Assembly (NCBI GenBank): GCA_024644595.1
Contig: JAHEHL010000009.1
Span: forward strand, 395,512 to 459,511
From: Porticoccaceae bacterium
GTDB taxonomy: Bacteria; Pseudomonadota; Gammaproteobacteria; Pseudomonadales; Porticoccaceae
Length of the DNA stretch: 64,000 nucleotides
Direction: 5' to 3'
Under the pieces are notes generated by a model that was not told the DNA's origin, did no database searches, and was given only the letters and a program-made list of their open reading frames with translations. Shown here one piece after another: positions 58,415 through 63,994 of the stretch; position 1 is the first letter of the stretch, and each line of letters opens with the position of its first letter. The position numbers were made by a program, and so were the translations under genes.

Positions 58415-59782
58415 TTACAGAGCCTCCAGCGCCTCGGTGACTTTTCGCACGCCAATGACTTGCATCCCTTTGATAGGCTGCTTCGGCACATTGCCCGCCG
58501 GCACAATGGCGCGACTAAAGCCATGTTTGGCCGCCTCGCGCAGTCGCTCCTGACCATTGGCCACCGGGCGAATTTCACCAGCCAAGCCCACTTCACCAAA
58601 GACCACCAGATCCTGGGGCAGTGGCTGATCTCGAAAGCTGGAAATGACCGCCAGAATCAACGCCAGATCGGCACTGGTTTCGAGCACCTTGACGCCGCCA
58701 ACCACATTGACAAAAACATCCTGGTCGCCAACCGCAATGCCACCGTGACGGTGTAAAACTGCCAGTAACATTGACAGGCGATTGTGATCAAGACCCACTG
58801 TAACCCGCCGTGGATTACCGAGGTGGCTGTCGTCCACCAGCGCTTGCAATTCCACCAGCAGCGGTCGAGTGCCCTCCCAGACAATCATTACCACACTGCC
58901 AGATGAGACCTCTTCACCGCGCTGAAGAAAAATTGCCGAGGGGTTGGGGACTTCACGCAGACCTTTGTCGGTCATAGCAAATACGCCCAGCTCATTAACC
59001 GCGCCAAAACGATTTTTATGGCTGCGAAGAGTACGAAAATGGTTGTCGCTGGAGCCTTCAAGCATCAGCGAGCAGTCGATCATATGCTCAAGTACTTTAG
59101 GTCCCGCCAGAGAGCCGTCTTTGGTGACATGGCCGACCAGTATTAACACTGTGCCGGTCTGCTTGGCAAAACGCACCAGCATGGCAGCACTTTCGCGTAC
59201 CTGGGAAACGCTGCCCGGCGCCGAGGCGACTTCTTCGATATGCATAACCTGAATCGAATCGACCACCAGAACTTTTGGTCGCTTCTGTTCGGCAATGGCG
59301 CAGACTGTTTCGACGGAGGTCTCTGCCATAATTTCTAATTTGTCGGTGGGCAGGCCGAGGCGATTGGCGCGCATGGCTATCTGTTGTGGTGACTCCTCAC
59401 CGGTGACATAGAGTGACGAATGATTTTCAGCCAGCTGACAAAGTGTCTGCAACAATACGGTACTTTTACCGGCGCCTGGCTCACCGCCAAGCAGTACACA
59501 GGAGCCGGGGACCAACCCACCACCGAGCACCAGGTCGAGCTCACCGGTGCCGGTACTGATACGTGGAATTTCATCCAGAGCGATATCAGCGAGAGTCTTG
59601 ACCGCACCGTCAACCGCGCCGGCAAAACCGGGACGCAGTACTTTGCCACCGCGCGCGGGTGCACTGAGGCGGATTTCAGACAGAGTGTTCCAGGCATTGC
59701 ACTCAGTGCACTGACCTTGCCATTTGCGATAGTCGGCCCCGCAGTCATTGCAGACATAGGCTGATTTGGTTTTTGTCACCAC
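58415..59782 (-). CDS. radA: DNA repair protein RadA
   Basis: 455 aa RecA-like helicase that extends recombination intermediates. N-terminal zinc finger CNDCGADYRKWQGQCTEC, Walker A LLGGEPGAGKSTVLLQTL, LVVDSIQVMH, the RadA motif HKNRFGAVNELGVF, and a C-terminal Lon-protease-like domain (QDVFVNVVGGVKVLETSADL, VVFGEVGLAGEIRPV). The real start is GTG at 59782 (GTGGTGACAAAAACC) preceded by GGAGAG 5 nt away; the frame open to 60109 overlaps the divergent GNAT gene. Confidence 0.96.
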   Translation of the reverse strand: MVTKTKSAYVCNDCGADYRKWQGQCTECNAWNTLSEIRLSAPARGGKVLRPGFAGAVDGAVKTLADIALDEIPRISTGTGELDLVLGGGLVPGSCVLLGGEPGAGKSTVLLQTLCQLAENHSSLYVTGEESPQQIAMRANRLGLPTDKLEIMAETSVETVCAIAEQKRPKVLVVDSIQVMHIEEVASAPGSVSQVRESAAMLVRFAKQTGTVLILVGHVTKDGSLAGPKVLEHMIDCSLMLEGSSDNHFRTLRSHKNRFGAVNELGVFAMTDKGLREVPNPSAIFLQRGEEVSSGSVVMIVWEGTRPLLVELQALVDDSHLGNPRRVTVGLDHNRLSMLLAVLHRHGGIAVGDQDVFVNVVGGVKVLETSADLALILAVISSFRDQPLPQDLVVFGEVGLAGEIRPVANGQERLREAAKHGFSRAIVPAGNVPKQPIKGMQVIGVRKVTEALEAL

Positions 59783-59909
59783 GTAATCTCTCCTTACAAC
59801 TGAGGTCCATTTAATCTTATTACTGTTGTTATGTACAGTAATATGGCTATTCTCAAGTTGCAGCGTGGCAGCTAAGATAGCCAGCCACAAAAATTGCCCA
59901 GAGAATACT

Positions 59910-60413
59910 ATGCAACCGAGCTCGGAACACTCCGATTTTAAAATACGCCAGGCAACTGAGCTGGACTGCGCGACAATTCTGCGCTTTATCACCCAACTTG
60001 CAGAATACGAGAAGCTGGCCCATGAGGTGGTCGCCGATGAAAAGAAATTGGCAGCAACACTATTCGGAGATAACCCTAGCGCCGAGGTGGTGATTGCCGA
60101 ATACGACACTAAGCCAGTTGGTTTTGCGCTTTATTTCACTAACTATTCCACCTTTCTCGCCCAACCCGGAATCTATCTTGAAGACCTGTTTGTGGATATC
60201 ACCATGCGCGGAAAAGGCTTTGGAAAAGCGCTCCTAACTCATCTGGCAAAGCTGGCGGTCGAGCGCAACTGCGGCCGCCTGGAATGGTCTGTTCTCGACT
60301 GGAACCAACCGGCAATCGATTTTTATCGCGCATTGGGAGCAGAGCCTATGGACGGCTGGACGGTTAATCGTCTCACCGGTGCTGCGCTGACCAACCTCGC
60401 CGCAACTGCATGA
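59910..60413 (+). CDS. GNAT-family N-acetyltransferase (diamine acetyltransferase-like)
   Basis: 167 aa. FKIRQATELDCATILRFITQ, LAEYEKL, then the acetyl-CoA pyrophosphate loop ITMRGKGFGKALLTHLAKLA preceded by GIYLEDLFV, and the terminal WNQPAIDFYRALGAEPMDGW. The LAEYEKL plus YLEDLFV pattern is typical of the SSAT-like (spermidine/thialysine) group. ATG 59910 chosen (MQPSSEHSDF). Divergent from radA. Confidence 0.9.
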   Translation: MQPSSEHSDFKIRQATELDCATILRFITQLAEYEKLAHEVVADEKKLAATLFGDNPSAEVVIAEYDTKPVGFALYFTNYSTFLAQPGIYLEDLFVDITMRGKGFGKALLTHLAKLAVERNCGRLEWSVLDWNQPAIDFYRALGAEPMDGWTVNRLTGAALTNLAATA

Positions 60414-60486: not shown

Positions 60487-61617
60487 ATGTCGCTGATACC
60501 CGAAAAAACCATCACTATCTCACCTACTCTGGCCGCCACTATCGGGCTGGAAGAGACCGTGTTGCTGCAACTTTTGCAGGAATGTATCAGCCATAGCAAC
60601 CCCGAGCAGAGTCAGGGTTTGAACTGGGTTACCGTGGACGGTGAGAGGCTGCTCAACCTGGCACCCTTTTGGCGCGAAGAGGATATCGTCCGCCTCTCCA
60701 CCGGGCTACATGAGAAGGGTTTACTGTTGATTGGCGGCGCACCATTTTCTGGTCAGCGCGAGTTCCGTTTTGCCTTTAATGATGCGGTCGCCTCAAGTGC
60801 TAACTGCGGACCCGCTCAAACCCAAACGGCAACCCGGTCAGTCGCAACAACAGCCGTTCCAGCATCAGCCAAAACCATTGGCAACAGTTGGCAACCCAGT
60901 CAGGATGCGATGCGTCAACTGAGCCAGTTAGGGGTCACCCAAGCGTTTGCCGAGCAGCAGATTCCACAGTTTGTTGCCTACTGGCGCGATCGCAATGTGC
61001 CACGCCATAGCTGGGAATCAAAATTTATCAAAGAGGTCTGGCGCCAGTGGCAGCAAGCCGAGGCAACTTCTTACCGCCGCCGTCAGGAAGTGGCACTTAC
61101 TGGAGACTGGCGACCGTCGCGAGATGCGTTGCAGATTTTGATCGGCCAGGGCGGCATTAACAGCAACTTTGTTGAGGATGCGATTCCAGAGTTTATTCTC
61201 TACTGGCGCGACCGCGGTGACGTTTCCAGCACCTGGGACTCAAAATTTATCCAGCATATTCGTCGTCAATGGCAGTTTTACACTGGCATGATGGAGCAGG
61301 ACAGTATGCCGCGGGCGATCGAAATTCAGTGGCGACCAAAGGAGTCAGTCTACGATGTACTGCAGATGGCGAACATCAGCCGTCAGTTCGCCGACCAGTT
61401 ACTGCCTGAATTTATTCTCTATTGGCAGGAAAACGGCACGCCACAGTGCTCCTGGAGTACCAAGTTTCTCCAATACGTAAAGCGTCAGTGGGCGCGCCAT
61501 ATTCAACCACCGTCAACGGGTACCGCAGATGGCAAACAGCAAGGATCTAATCCAAACGGTCGCATCCGGGATCGCAGCATCATCGACGCTCTCTCAGACC
61601 GCAGCTGGGCAAGCTAA
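60487..61617 (+). CDS. DnaT-like protein with three tandem ssDNA-binding (DnaTB) domains
   Basis: 376 aa. N-terminal winged-helix-like region (about 1-95; LNLAPFWREEDIVRLSTGLH, EKGLLLIGG), a flexible linker (100-132), then three copies of a domain of about 55 residues at roughly 135-190, 208-263 and 282-337. Each has the pattern W-x-P-x9-L-x6-F-x8-P-x-F-x2-YW-x12-W-x3-F-x7-RQW, the PF17948 DnaT DNA-binding signature (for example IPQFVAYWRDR, IPEFILYWRDR, LPEFILYWQEN). E. coli DnaT has one such domain. The 3' end overlaps the lambda-P-like gene by 89 bp. Inferred primosome or helicase-loading role. Confidence 0.85.
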   Translation: MSLIPEKTITISPTLAATIGLEETVLLQLLQECISHSNPEQSQGLNWVTVDGERLLNLAPFWREEDIVRLSTGLHEKGLLLIGGAPFSGQREFRFAFNDAVASSANCGPAQTQTATRSVATTAVPASAKTIGNSWQPSQDAMRQLSQLGVTQAFAEQQIPQFVAYWRDRNVPRHSWESKFIKEVWRQWQQAEATSYRRRQEVALTGDWRPSRDALQILIGQGGINSNFVEDAIPEFILYWRDRGDVSSTWDSKFIQHIRRQWQFYTGMMEQDSMPRAIEIQWRPKESVYDVLQMANISRQFADQLLPEFILYWQENGTPQCSWSTKFLQYVKRQWARHIQPPSTGTADGKQQGSNPNGRIRDRSIIDALSDRSWAS

Positions 61618-62194
61618 ACCAACCCCGGCCAGCCCCGAACTGATTGATGCAATCAATCAGATTTTTGCGCTGTTCCAGGTTAACTACCACAATCAGTATT
61701 ACGCGGCCTTTGGTGACAACACCAAGTCGGAAAACCTGGCAAAAAAACTCTGGCTGAATAAAATCGGTGACTTTGCCCCGGAGACGATCCTCAAAGCAGC
61801 GGAAAAAATTATCGCTGACAGTGAATACTTGCCAACCTTGCATAAAATGCTTAATGCCTGTCGTGCAGCGGGAATGCCTGCTGGCCTGCCCTCTCCGCGC
61901 AATGCCTACCTGGAAGTCTGTAATAAGGCCAGCCCCAAGGCCGCACAACAGTGGTCCCACCCGGCTGTCTATGCCGCTGGCCGCGACTGCGGCTGGCACT
62001 TTCTCGCCAATACCAGTGAGAATAAGGCGTTTACCCCGTTCACCGAAATCTATCAGCAGTACTGTGATCGGGTGCTGGCCGGAGAAGAATTTCAGATTGA
62101 GCCGCCAGAAGCATTGCCAGAGACATCACTGAAACCGGCGAGTAAAAAACAGGCTTTGAGTGAACTGGATTCTCTCAAGAAGATGTTCAACTAG
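61529..62194 (+). CDS. Replication protein P-like (phage lambda P family) helicase loader
   Basis: 221 aa. The order of motifs parallels phage lambda P: an N-terminal low-complexity part; PELIDAINQIFALFQVNYHN; LAKKLWLNKIGDFAPETILK, followed by YLPTLHKMLNACRAAG; SPRNAYLEVCNKASPKAAQQ; GWHFLANTSENKAFTPF followed by RVLAGEEFQIEPPEALPE; C-terminal ALSELDSLKKMF. Lambda P loads DnaB helicase at the phage origin. Here no other phage gene is near and the gene starts inside the DnaT-like gene (89-bp overlap, +1 frame relation), pointing to a domesticated host function. Assignment is from pattern similarity, not alignment scores. Confidence 0.75.
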   Translation: MANSKDLIQTVASGIAASSTLSQTAAGQAKPTPASPELIDAINQIFALFQVNYHNQYYAAFGDNTKSENLAKKLWLNKIGDFAPETILKAAEKIIADSEYLPTLHKMLNACRAAGMPAGLPSPRNAYLEVCNKASPKAAQQWSHPAVYAAGRDCGWHFLANTSENKAFTPFTEIYQQYCDRVLAGEEFQIEPPEALPETSLKPASKKQALSELDSLKKMFN

Positions 62195-62224: not shown

Positions 62225-63994
62225 ATGCCGATGACTCCGTTGATCCACAACTCAACCGCCCGGCGTATGGCGAAAACCATCCTCAACGGCTTTCGCAGCT
62301 ATTTTGCTGACTACCTCAACTCTACCCTGAGTGCCAAAGCACGCTTTGAAAAAGCTGACTGGCACGGTGTCCAACAGGCCAATGTCGACCGACTTGAACT
62401 GTATAAAGCCAAAGTCGCGCAAACCGTTATGTATCTGGAGATGGTCACCAATAAGGATATCGCCAATCTGGATCTCTGGACGGAAGCTAAAAAAGCCTAC
62501 ACACAGTTGGTATTTAACTTCCCCAATTTTGAGATCGCTGAGACGTTTTTCAATTCTGTGTTCGCCGACTTGCATGACCACGACAAAATTAGCGACGACA
62601 TTATCTATGTTTTGTCGTCTCAGCTGATTGAAGCACCCGCCGCCGAATACAGTATTTTTGTGCGCTATGACGGCGCTGATCTGCGCGATACTTTTAGGCG
62701 CATTCTCAAAGAGTCCGAGTTTTCCCTGCCCGGTGAAGACATCGAACTGGATCTGGATTGCATTTTAGACGTATTCAATCAGGAAGTTATTCCACAACTG
62801 ACTGGCCCGGCAGCCGAACTTAAATTTGACCTGTTGGAGTCGACTTTTTATCGCGGCAAAGCCGCCTATATGGTTGGCCGTGTGCTTGATGGCGAGCAGA
62901 TTTTCCCTATGGCGTTGGTGATTTTAAATACTGAACAGGGCCAGCTCTATGTTGATACAGCAATCTTTAATTCAGATGAGCTGAGTGTGATTTTCAGTTT
63001 TACTCGTAACCATTTTATGGTCGATGCGCCACTACCCTATCAGTATGCGCATTTTCTCAAGACACTGATGCCGCTCAAACTGGACTATGAGATCTACAAT
63101 TCTCTTGGCTTTCCCAAACATGCCAAGACCGAATTCTATCGACAGCTGGTGCACCAACTGGATAATTCCAGCGACCAGTTTATTGTTGCGCCAGGCATTA
63201 AAGGTATGGTGATGACGGTTTTTACACTGCCTTCATACAATATTGTGTTCAAAATTATTAAAGATAAATTCGCCCCGCCCAAAGAAGTGACCCATCAGAC
63301 GGTGCGTGAAAAGTACCGATTGGTTTCACGCCACGATCGTATTGGGCGAATGGCTGATACTCAGGAATTTGATAATCTGGTGTTTCCTCTGAATCGATTC
63401 TCCGATCAATTGATTGAAGAACTGCAAAAAGTGGCGCCGTCATCCATTGAAATTCGCGGTGACAGGTTAGTCATCAAACACCTTTACACCGAACGTTATA
63501 TGACGCCGCTCAATATTTATCTGGAAAGCGCCAATGACGATGAGATTCGCAATGCCATGGAAGAGTATGGCAACTGTATCAAACAGCTAGCTGCGGCAAA
63601 TATTTTTCCCGGCGATATGCCACTGAAGAATTTTGGTGTGACCCGACATGGCCGTGTGGTGTTCTACGATTATGATGAGATCGCTACACTGACCGATTGT
63701 AATTTCCGCAAGATTCCTCAGGCGCGCACCGAAGAGGAAGAGATGCAGTCAGGTACCTGGTACACAGTTGCCCCCGATGATGTCTTCCCCGAGGAGTTTC
63801 GCCTGTTCTTTTCCGGCAATAATAAAGCGCGGAAGATGTTTGAGGAGATGCATAGCGATTTATATCAAGTGGAATTTTGGCAGGACCTGCAAGAAAAAAT
63901 TCGCGGTGGATTTGTTCTCGATGTCTTTCCCTATCGTCGCGCCAGGCGCTTTGACCGCGGCAAAGACTCTGTTCTGCAGGTTTTCTCCGGCTAA
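62225..63994 (+). CDS. aceK: Isocitrate dehydrogenase kinase/phosphatase
   Basis: 589 aa. Bifunctional enzyme that phosphorylates and dephosphorylates isocitrate dehydrogenase to switch flux between the TCA cycle and the glyoxylate shunt. Features: N-terminal regulatory half (ILNGFRSYFADYLNSTLSAK), nucleotide site APGIKGMVMTVFTLPSYNIV followed by FKIIKDKFAPPKEV, YTERYMTPLNIYLE, and the catalytic FPGDMPLKNFGVTRHGRVVF with YDYDEI. Normal length; 30 bp after the lambda-P-like gene. aceA/aceB are not in the window. Confidence 0.97.
   Translation: MPMTPLIHNSTARRMAKTILNGFRSYFADYLNSTLSAKARFEKADWHGVQQANVDRLELYKAKVAQTVMYLEMVTNKDIANLDLWTEAKKAYTQLVFNFPNFEIAETFFNSVFADLHDHDKISDDIIYVLSSQLIEAPAAEYSIFVRYDGADLRDTFRRILKESEFSLPGEDIELDLDCILDVFNQEVIPQLTGPAAELKFDLLESTFYRGKAAYMVGRVLDGEQIFPMALVILNTEQGQLYVDTAIFNSDELSVIFSFTRNHFMVDAPLPYQYAHFLKTLMPLKLDYEIYNSLGFPKHAKTEFYRQLVHQLDNSSDQFIVAPGIKGMVMTVFTLPSYNIVFKIIKDKFAPPKEVTHQTVREKYRLVSRHDRIGRMADTQEFDNLVFPLNRFSDQLIEELQKVAPSSIEIRGDRLVIKHLYTERYMTPLNIYLESANDDEIRNAMEEYGNCIKQLAAANIFPGDMPLKNFGVTRHGRVVFYDYDEIATLTDCNFRKIPQARTEEEEMQSGTWYTVAPDDVFPEEFRLFFSGNNKARKMFEEMHSDLYQVEFWQDLQEKIRGGFVLDVFPYRRARRFDRGKDSVLQVFSG

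Follow-up and report, generated by a model that had tools for sequence, protein, structure and literature searches.

Every bacterium has to load its replicative helicase, and this step is a point at which replication is controlled. In E. coli, the dnaT gene lies directly before the gene for the helicase loader DnaC, on one strand, and DnaC is an AAA+ protein. A comparable order occurs in bacteriophage lambda, where the initiator gene O directly precedes the loader gene P and the ends of the two genes overlap, as well as in Escherichia phage PAS61, in which a DnaT-domain gene annotated as 'primosomal protein I' stands directly before the P gene. Two phages annotated like PAS61, ZX5 and ST15-VIM1phi2.1, gave no match to the DnaT profile. 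Another type of pair, DopC/DopE, was reportedly proposed by Brezellec et al. in 2017 as a lambda-derived gene pair of bacteria devoid of DciA and DnaC/I. That work is cited in PMC13326638, PMC6784150 and PMC10201434, and the first of these speaks of DopE as a family of loaders; moreover, Brezellec had already singled out the Cellvibrionales in 2016 as lacking both DciA and DnaC/I (PMC5109545).

An earlier note on the window, the 64-kb stretch of DNA from a marine bacterium analysed here, had suggested a domesticated loader pair resembling that of a phage, a reading that is well supported by the P family, the fold, the same place over several families and a near-complete exclusion with DciA. 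We assign the pair to the DopC/DopE type that Brezellec et al. proposed in 2017, as a standard member that shares with this type a P-family gene, an initiator-like DnaT partner directly upstream, a fixed chromosomal place and a host without a match to DciA or E. coli DnaC. The best explanation, with a probability of about 0.86, is that the pair is a phage O/P-type module turned chromosomal DnaB loader, replacing DciA. Since DopC/DopE was reportedly proposed in 2017, the core of this finding is already known. The sequences suggest three additions to it, namely a range of one to four DnaT domains, an old triplication and a C-terminal tail. The tail and its use by phages seem new: a literature search that did not extend to the text of Brezellec et al. 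2017 listed no paper on either, and no experimental study of the DopC/DopE loader class. The locus represents a clean member of this least studied class of loaders.

The gene pair, its chromosomal place and its products

According to ORF calls in the window, the DopC-type gene occupies positions 60487-61617 of the forward strand and encodes 376 aa, while the DopE-type gene, with 221 aa, follows on the same strand at 61529-62194. The two ORFs have 89 nt in common (61529-61617), which are read in two frames as the end of DopC and the start of DopE, in agreement with the overlap given in the earlier note; in lambda, the overlap is 4 nt. Pfam matches on the flanks also agree with that note's placement of the pair between a GNAT acetyltransferase gene (59826-60413, forward strand) and aceK (62225-63994, forward strand). 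Before them, on the opposite strand, lies radA (58415-59989, start approximate), recognized by RadA-type Pfam matches. Unlike the phage-borne lambda pair, the pair in the window stands among core genes.

Within the window's family, DnaT matches are present in 58 of 61 sampled genomes, with exactly three in 55 of these, and both genes occur in all 20 loci fetched, which excludes a chance occurrence of the pair. These family loci have ATG starts and overlaps of 86-92 nt. A scan of named genomes yielded 371 loader relatives, and the locus counts rest on the best 80 of these, which belong to Porticoccaceae/SAR92, Halieaceae, Cellvibrionaceae and uncultured kin; a single Flavobacteriaceae label (L053) is taken as a binning error. 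In 79 of the best 80 loci a DnaT ORF precedes the loader, carrying three domains in 77 and two in 2, and the sole exception, L030, is a contig edge. The radA gene is found in 73 of the 80 and is divergent in all 73, aceK follows downstream in about half (41), and the GNAT gene is a minority neighbour (13). The loader's first residue aligned in 71 of the best 80 loci; 55 of these have an overlap of 89 nt, 13 have one of 86 nt, one each has 92 and 95 nt, and L093 has none. Hence the pair holds a fixed chromosomal place outside prophages, and the prophage island considered in the earlier note is contradicted by the core neighbours and by the same location across families. Extra P-like genes are seen at L175-L177 and L179-L181 (genomes G185, G094, G195 and G066), with up to ten matches in G185; most have no DnaT neighbour, L176 and L177 have one, and they are perhaps prophage copies.

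The DopC-type protein combines a winged-helix-like N-terminus, DnaT domains and a C-terminal tail, as seen from the ORF, the Pfam matches, an AF2 model (mean pLDDT 72.8) and the family alignment. PF17948 matches it three times (E 2.3e-66), confirming the three tandem copies described before: domain 1 at 60877-61068 (G000:C7:456388-456579, E 5.2e-20), domain 2 at 61093-61284 (G000:C7:456604-456795, E 1.8e-24) and domain 3 at 61315-61506 (G000:C7:456826-457017, E 7.6e-23), all on the forward strand. Additionally, DopC matches a PHROG replication initiation protein (E 2.6e-14). E. coli DnaT shares the PF17948 ssDNA-binding domain but has one copy instead of three, another N-terminus and no W tail, and DopC reaches 17.2 bits with the E. 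coli DnaT equivalog NF002770, which requires more than 201 bits over the whole protein. PAS61 likewise differs from DopC in its single DnaT domain, and lambda O in having none by the DnaT profile.

The DnaT domains of DopC match the DnaT-ssDNA structure 4ou7 in a profile search (E 0.003) and 4ou6 in a fold search (prob 0.99, but E 0.22). In the mature preprimosome of E. coli, four DnaT C-terminal domains are wound around the lagging strand (PMC13377028). Three such domains in a single chain would form a ready-made stretch of this filament, so that DopC may coat ssDNA as a covalent stand-in for it. The N-terminal domain (residues 1 to about 100, 60487-60786) matches phrog_6493, a DnaD-like helicase loader, at E 0.001. 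The winged-helix-like character attributed to it in the earlier note appears in the AF2 model, as helices and strands over residues 13-97 with a block pLDDT of about 69-90; in the fold search, the Foldseek matches to winged-helix proteins are weak, every one having an E of 0.25 or more. A winged helix here might place DopC at oriC or at forks through contact with DnaA, PriA or DNA.

The DopE-type protein matches PF06992 (Phage_lambda_P) with 31.8 bits against a cut-off of 26 (E 1.5e-7) and PHROG_109, 'P-like helicase loader', at E 4.2e-17. Moreover, lambda P chains bound to DnaB take the first five places among the PDB matches of its AF2 model (mean pLDDT 72.2) in Foldseek: three are from 9oa1 (E 2.3e-4 to 7.1e-4) and two from 9oa2 (E 0.2 and 0.3), so that three of the top five lie below 0.001. 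The lambda-P-like second gene of the earlier note is supported by Pfam, PHROG and fold alike, and the searches with PF17948 and PF06992 that it called for match the first and the second protein, respectively, the P family being detected above its cut-off. Phage G39P (1no1) ranks ninth (prob 0.95, E 1.5), and a G39P Pfam match remains below its cut-off. The sequence profile of DopE finds no lambda P, and no true match at all, among PDB chains, and it matches 10 of 20 phage P proteins tried, lambda P not being one of them; the link to lambda P is therefore drawn by the fold search alone. The closest homologues in the phage collection are replication P proteins, at 28-29% identity. From the fold resemblance to lambda P on DnaB, DopE may bind DnaB and, like lambda P, hold its ring open.

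The AAA+ ATPase domain of DnaC/DnaI was not found in DopE, whose Pfam matches at E up to 1 are PF06992 and PF11417, and PF05258 (DciA) is absent from the Pfam matches of DopC and DopE. A whole-genome scan with PF06992 gave no match in the window's genome; because DopE itself scores above the cut-off of this model, the result is taken as a miss of the first-look filter. This miss is a caution for every absence claim made from the same kind of whole-genome search, the present analysis included.

Exclusion with DciA and the place of other loaders

The order was sampled with 145 genomes, of which 90 match the loader profile, 89 the DnaT profile and 45 the DciA profile, with 42 of the last above the Pfam cut-off. 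When these are cross-tabulated, 89 genomes have DnaT and the P-like gene without DciA, 44 have DciA only, one has both and 11 have neither (Fisher p 1.5e-25 for exclusion, not corrected for relatedness). DopC/DopE is in this sample the commoner loader system (89 of 145) and not an oddity. In the one genome with both, G119, the P-like gene stands alone, without a DnaT gene, beside DciA. Counted by hand over family handles, the pair is found in 28 of 47 and DciA in 17, one of which holds G119, leaving 2 with neither. Four of the 11 genomes with neither system show DciA matches below the cut-off (E 0.006 to 0.7), and five fall in families whose other members carry the pair. Two families with one genome each (89% and 83% complete), seen in G082 and G104, have neither DciA nor the pair, which may reflect either incomplete assemblies or another loader.

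In a sample of 369 genomes from the class, P-like matches occur in 10 and DciA in 298. Five of the ten, namely the window's own genome, G203, G245, G374 and G480, have an upstream DnaT gene and no DciA. No upstream DnaT gene was seen in G283, G288, G360 and G517, two of which are represented by short loci, and the tenth genome, G527, was left out of the upstream-gene check; three of these last five carry DciA.

The earlier note had suggested a check for other replication factors in the genome, and this gave a divided result: DnaB (a frame of 491 aa) and PriA (753 aa) are present, while profile and sequence searches of the genome gave no match for DciA, E. coli DnaC or PriC. In the order, PriC matches 3 of 145 genomes, all below the cut-off, and seems to be missing throughout. 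E. coli DnaC matches 40 of the 145, only two of them more strongly than about 1e-8 (G121, E 2.6e-34; G132, 5.3e-13); DnaC was ruled out as the loader, both strong matches being in DciA genomes, of which G121 has 6% contamination. A residue in the docking helix of DnaB is said to separate helicases served by DciA (serine) from those served by DnaC/I (glycine) (PMC9912922). At this helix the window's DnaB reads DDWPRLSSAAQ and E. coli DnaB reads EDWARISGTMG; by this comparison the window's DnaB is perhaps of the serine type.

Because DnaB and PriA are present, DciA, DnaC and PriC are undetected in the genome, and the pair and DciA exclude each other almost completely in the order, helicase loading in the window's genome is most likely the task of this pair. 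It probably serves both initiation and restart, since no other loader was detected there. A pair used for restart only, in the manner of PriA-DnaT-DnaC, with loading at oriC left to an unseen loader or to a self-loading DnaB, is improbable. DnaT domains are indeed known from restart (PMC13377028), PriA is encoded in the genome, and the 11 of 145 genomes with neither DciA nor the pair make undetected loaders conceivable. However, DciA, a protein that serves initiation in other bacteria (PMC5109545), is absent from 89 of the order's 90 P-positive genomes, and the strong DnaC matches of the order are confined to G121 and G132, with none in the window's genome. Far less probable still is a prophage remnant or phage-defence decoy without any role in chromosome replication. 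The phage P proteins closest to DopE and the extra P-like copies in some genomes could be cited for it, but core genes on both sides, the divergent radA in 73 of the best 80 loci and the DnaT matches in nearly all family genomes speak against it. A prophage remnant was ruled out by these neighbours and by conservation over families, and an anti-phage defence by the lack of any PADLOC match. The reading of the pair as a former phage module that now loads DnaB in place of DciA has its own difficulties, as the comparisons suggest, in the low identity to phage P, the failure of the sequence profile to find lambda P and the 11 genomes with neither system.

The C-terminal W tail and its phage counterparts

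DopC ends in a tail of the form D-x-[SDN]-W. In the window, the DRSWA codons (residues 371-375) lie at 61597-61611 of the forward strand, and DRSWA stands at the end of every one of the 21 DopC sequences in the family alignment. Scored as [DNST]x?[DSNE]W in the last 20 residues, a pattern written after the tails were seen, the motif is present in 149 of 154 DnaT ORFs adjoining a loader, or 137 of 142 when identical ends are counted once; E. coli DnaT, which lacks it, was set aside before the count. The five ORFs that deviate read DRHW, DYQW and, in two cases, DETW, or have a broken end (L093). As a control, 76 of 3792 mechanical frames of at least 100 aa from the same loci carry the motif.

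A similar end occurs in phages. The motif is present in 11 of 18 phage O-like proteins encoded directly before a P gene, a set that includes two near-identical pairs and leaves out two P loci without an annotated upstream gene. Lambda O is one of the 11, and its end, NTDWIYGVDL, resembles the tail of DopC. Four of the seven proteins without the motif have a W-rich end, for instance HWNSPEAW; PAS61 ends in this way and not in DxSW. In lambda, the C-terminal region of O is held to bind P, and the part of P held to bind O is the N-terminal one (PMC6022878). An allele of O with 294 of its 299 residues, which ends just after TDWI, is inactive (PMC6022878). From the sequence comparison we infer that the DopC tail is a docking tail for the loader, a reading that is strengthened by the essential end of lambda O. 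The tail would hold DopE-DnaB at the coated DNA, and it offers a small testable handle on how initiator and loader meet, in lambda and in these bacteria.

When IMG/VR was scanned with the DnaT protein, seven contigs matched. Five of them (L195-L199, the same contigs as L203-L207) encode a protein of 166-180 residues, with starts assumed, in which two DnaT domains are followed, close to the end, by an invariant DRSWA. These five contigs are Mu-like: all have a frame of 587-635 aa with an rve match, above the Pfam cut-off in one, the three checked have an AAA_22 frame, and a GemA-type gene is recognized by Pfam in four and by shared phrog_286 in the fifth. These contigs are 23-38 kb long; 11-13 kb of each were read, and this part showed no P-like gene. 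Mu depends on PriA and DnaT for its replication in E. coli (PMC3325207). Another contig, L202 (2352-3429), carries an O-like initiator (HTH_36; phrog_270) that has no DnaT domain. This initiator terminates in DRSWAE, and it shares about 80 nt with a frame of 152 aa, which corresponds to the N-terminal half of DopE with the middle part missing. By analogy with lambda P, this shortened DopE would keep the half to which O binding is assigned. In addition, the single DnaT proteins encoded by nine further contigs (L200/L209, L201/L208 and L210-L216) lack the tail; the three from L201, L211 and L212 adjoin a P-like frame, at E 0.013 in L211 and L212.

With odds only slightly better than even, a tail of the form D-x-[SDN]-W(A) acts as a portable tag that docks P-type loaders, together with DnaB, to DNA-binding proteins, and phages of these bacteria exploit it: the Mu-like ones could bring the host's DopE-DnaB to transposition forks, and the phage of L202 puts the tail on an unrelated initiator. 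Against a docking tail stand the seven phage O-like proteins without the motif and the tail-less DnaT proteins of the nine viral contigs, the three beside a P-like frame included. These tail-less proteins fit another account, in which the tail binds DnaB, DnaA or PriA directly or owes its conservation mainly to the start of DopE being encoded by those bases; the chromosomal tail codons do lie in the dual-coded stretch. This account appears rather doubtful, since the five Mu-like phage proteins all keep the tail and the stretches read around them contain no P-like gene, since among the 11 phage O-like proteins with the motif 10 overlap their P gene by 4 nt or less, and since the last five residues of lambda O, just after TDWI, are essential, with P binding at the C-terminal region of O (PMC6022878).

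History of the repeats and of the loader

Across relatives, DopC proteins contain one to four DnaT domains. Across 23 triple-domain proteins, a repeat and its positional counterpart in another species are 42, 58 and 54% alike for domains 1, 2 and 3, compared with 36, 36 and 39% for repeats at different positions and 37, 36 and 41% for repeats within one protein. Because same-position repeats are more alike than other repeats, the triplication probably predates the radiation of the triple-domain proteins; the margin is small for domain 1, and the repeat tree is poorly resolved.

The loader tree comprises 88 sequences, L127 and L129 being left out with fewer than 100 aligned residues. In it, the loaders of triple-domain loci cluster with both four-domain and three two-domain ones (36 rows, support 98/95), and a single-domain group of ten rows stands beside them (support 100/99). 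A second single-domain group (f6, f27 and f38), with a longer N-terminus, is placed apart from the main group, next to the P protein of Halomonas phage QHHSV-1 (support 96/85). The phylogeny against phage P proteins proposed in the earlier note has thus placed one group beside a phage P; two independent domestications are not claimed, because the AU test does not reject a single clade (p 0.23).

In the ten-row group beside the triple-domain loaders, the DopC frames have 144-181 residues and no room for a winged helix within the frame, so this domain is not needed everywhere. These short single-domain DopC frames, of about the size of E. coli DnaT, are found at L134, L136, L139, L144, L178, L183-L186 and L191, in families f2, f8 and f35.
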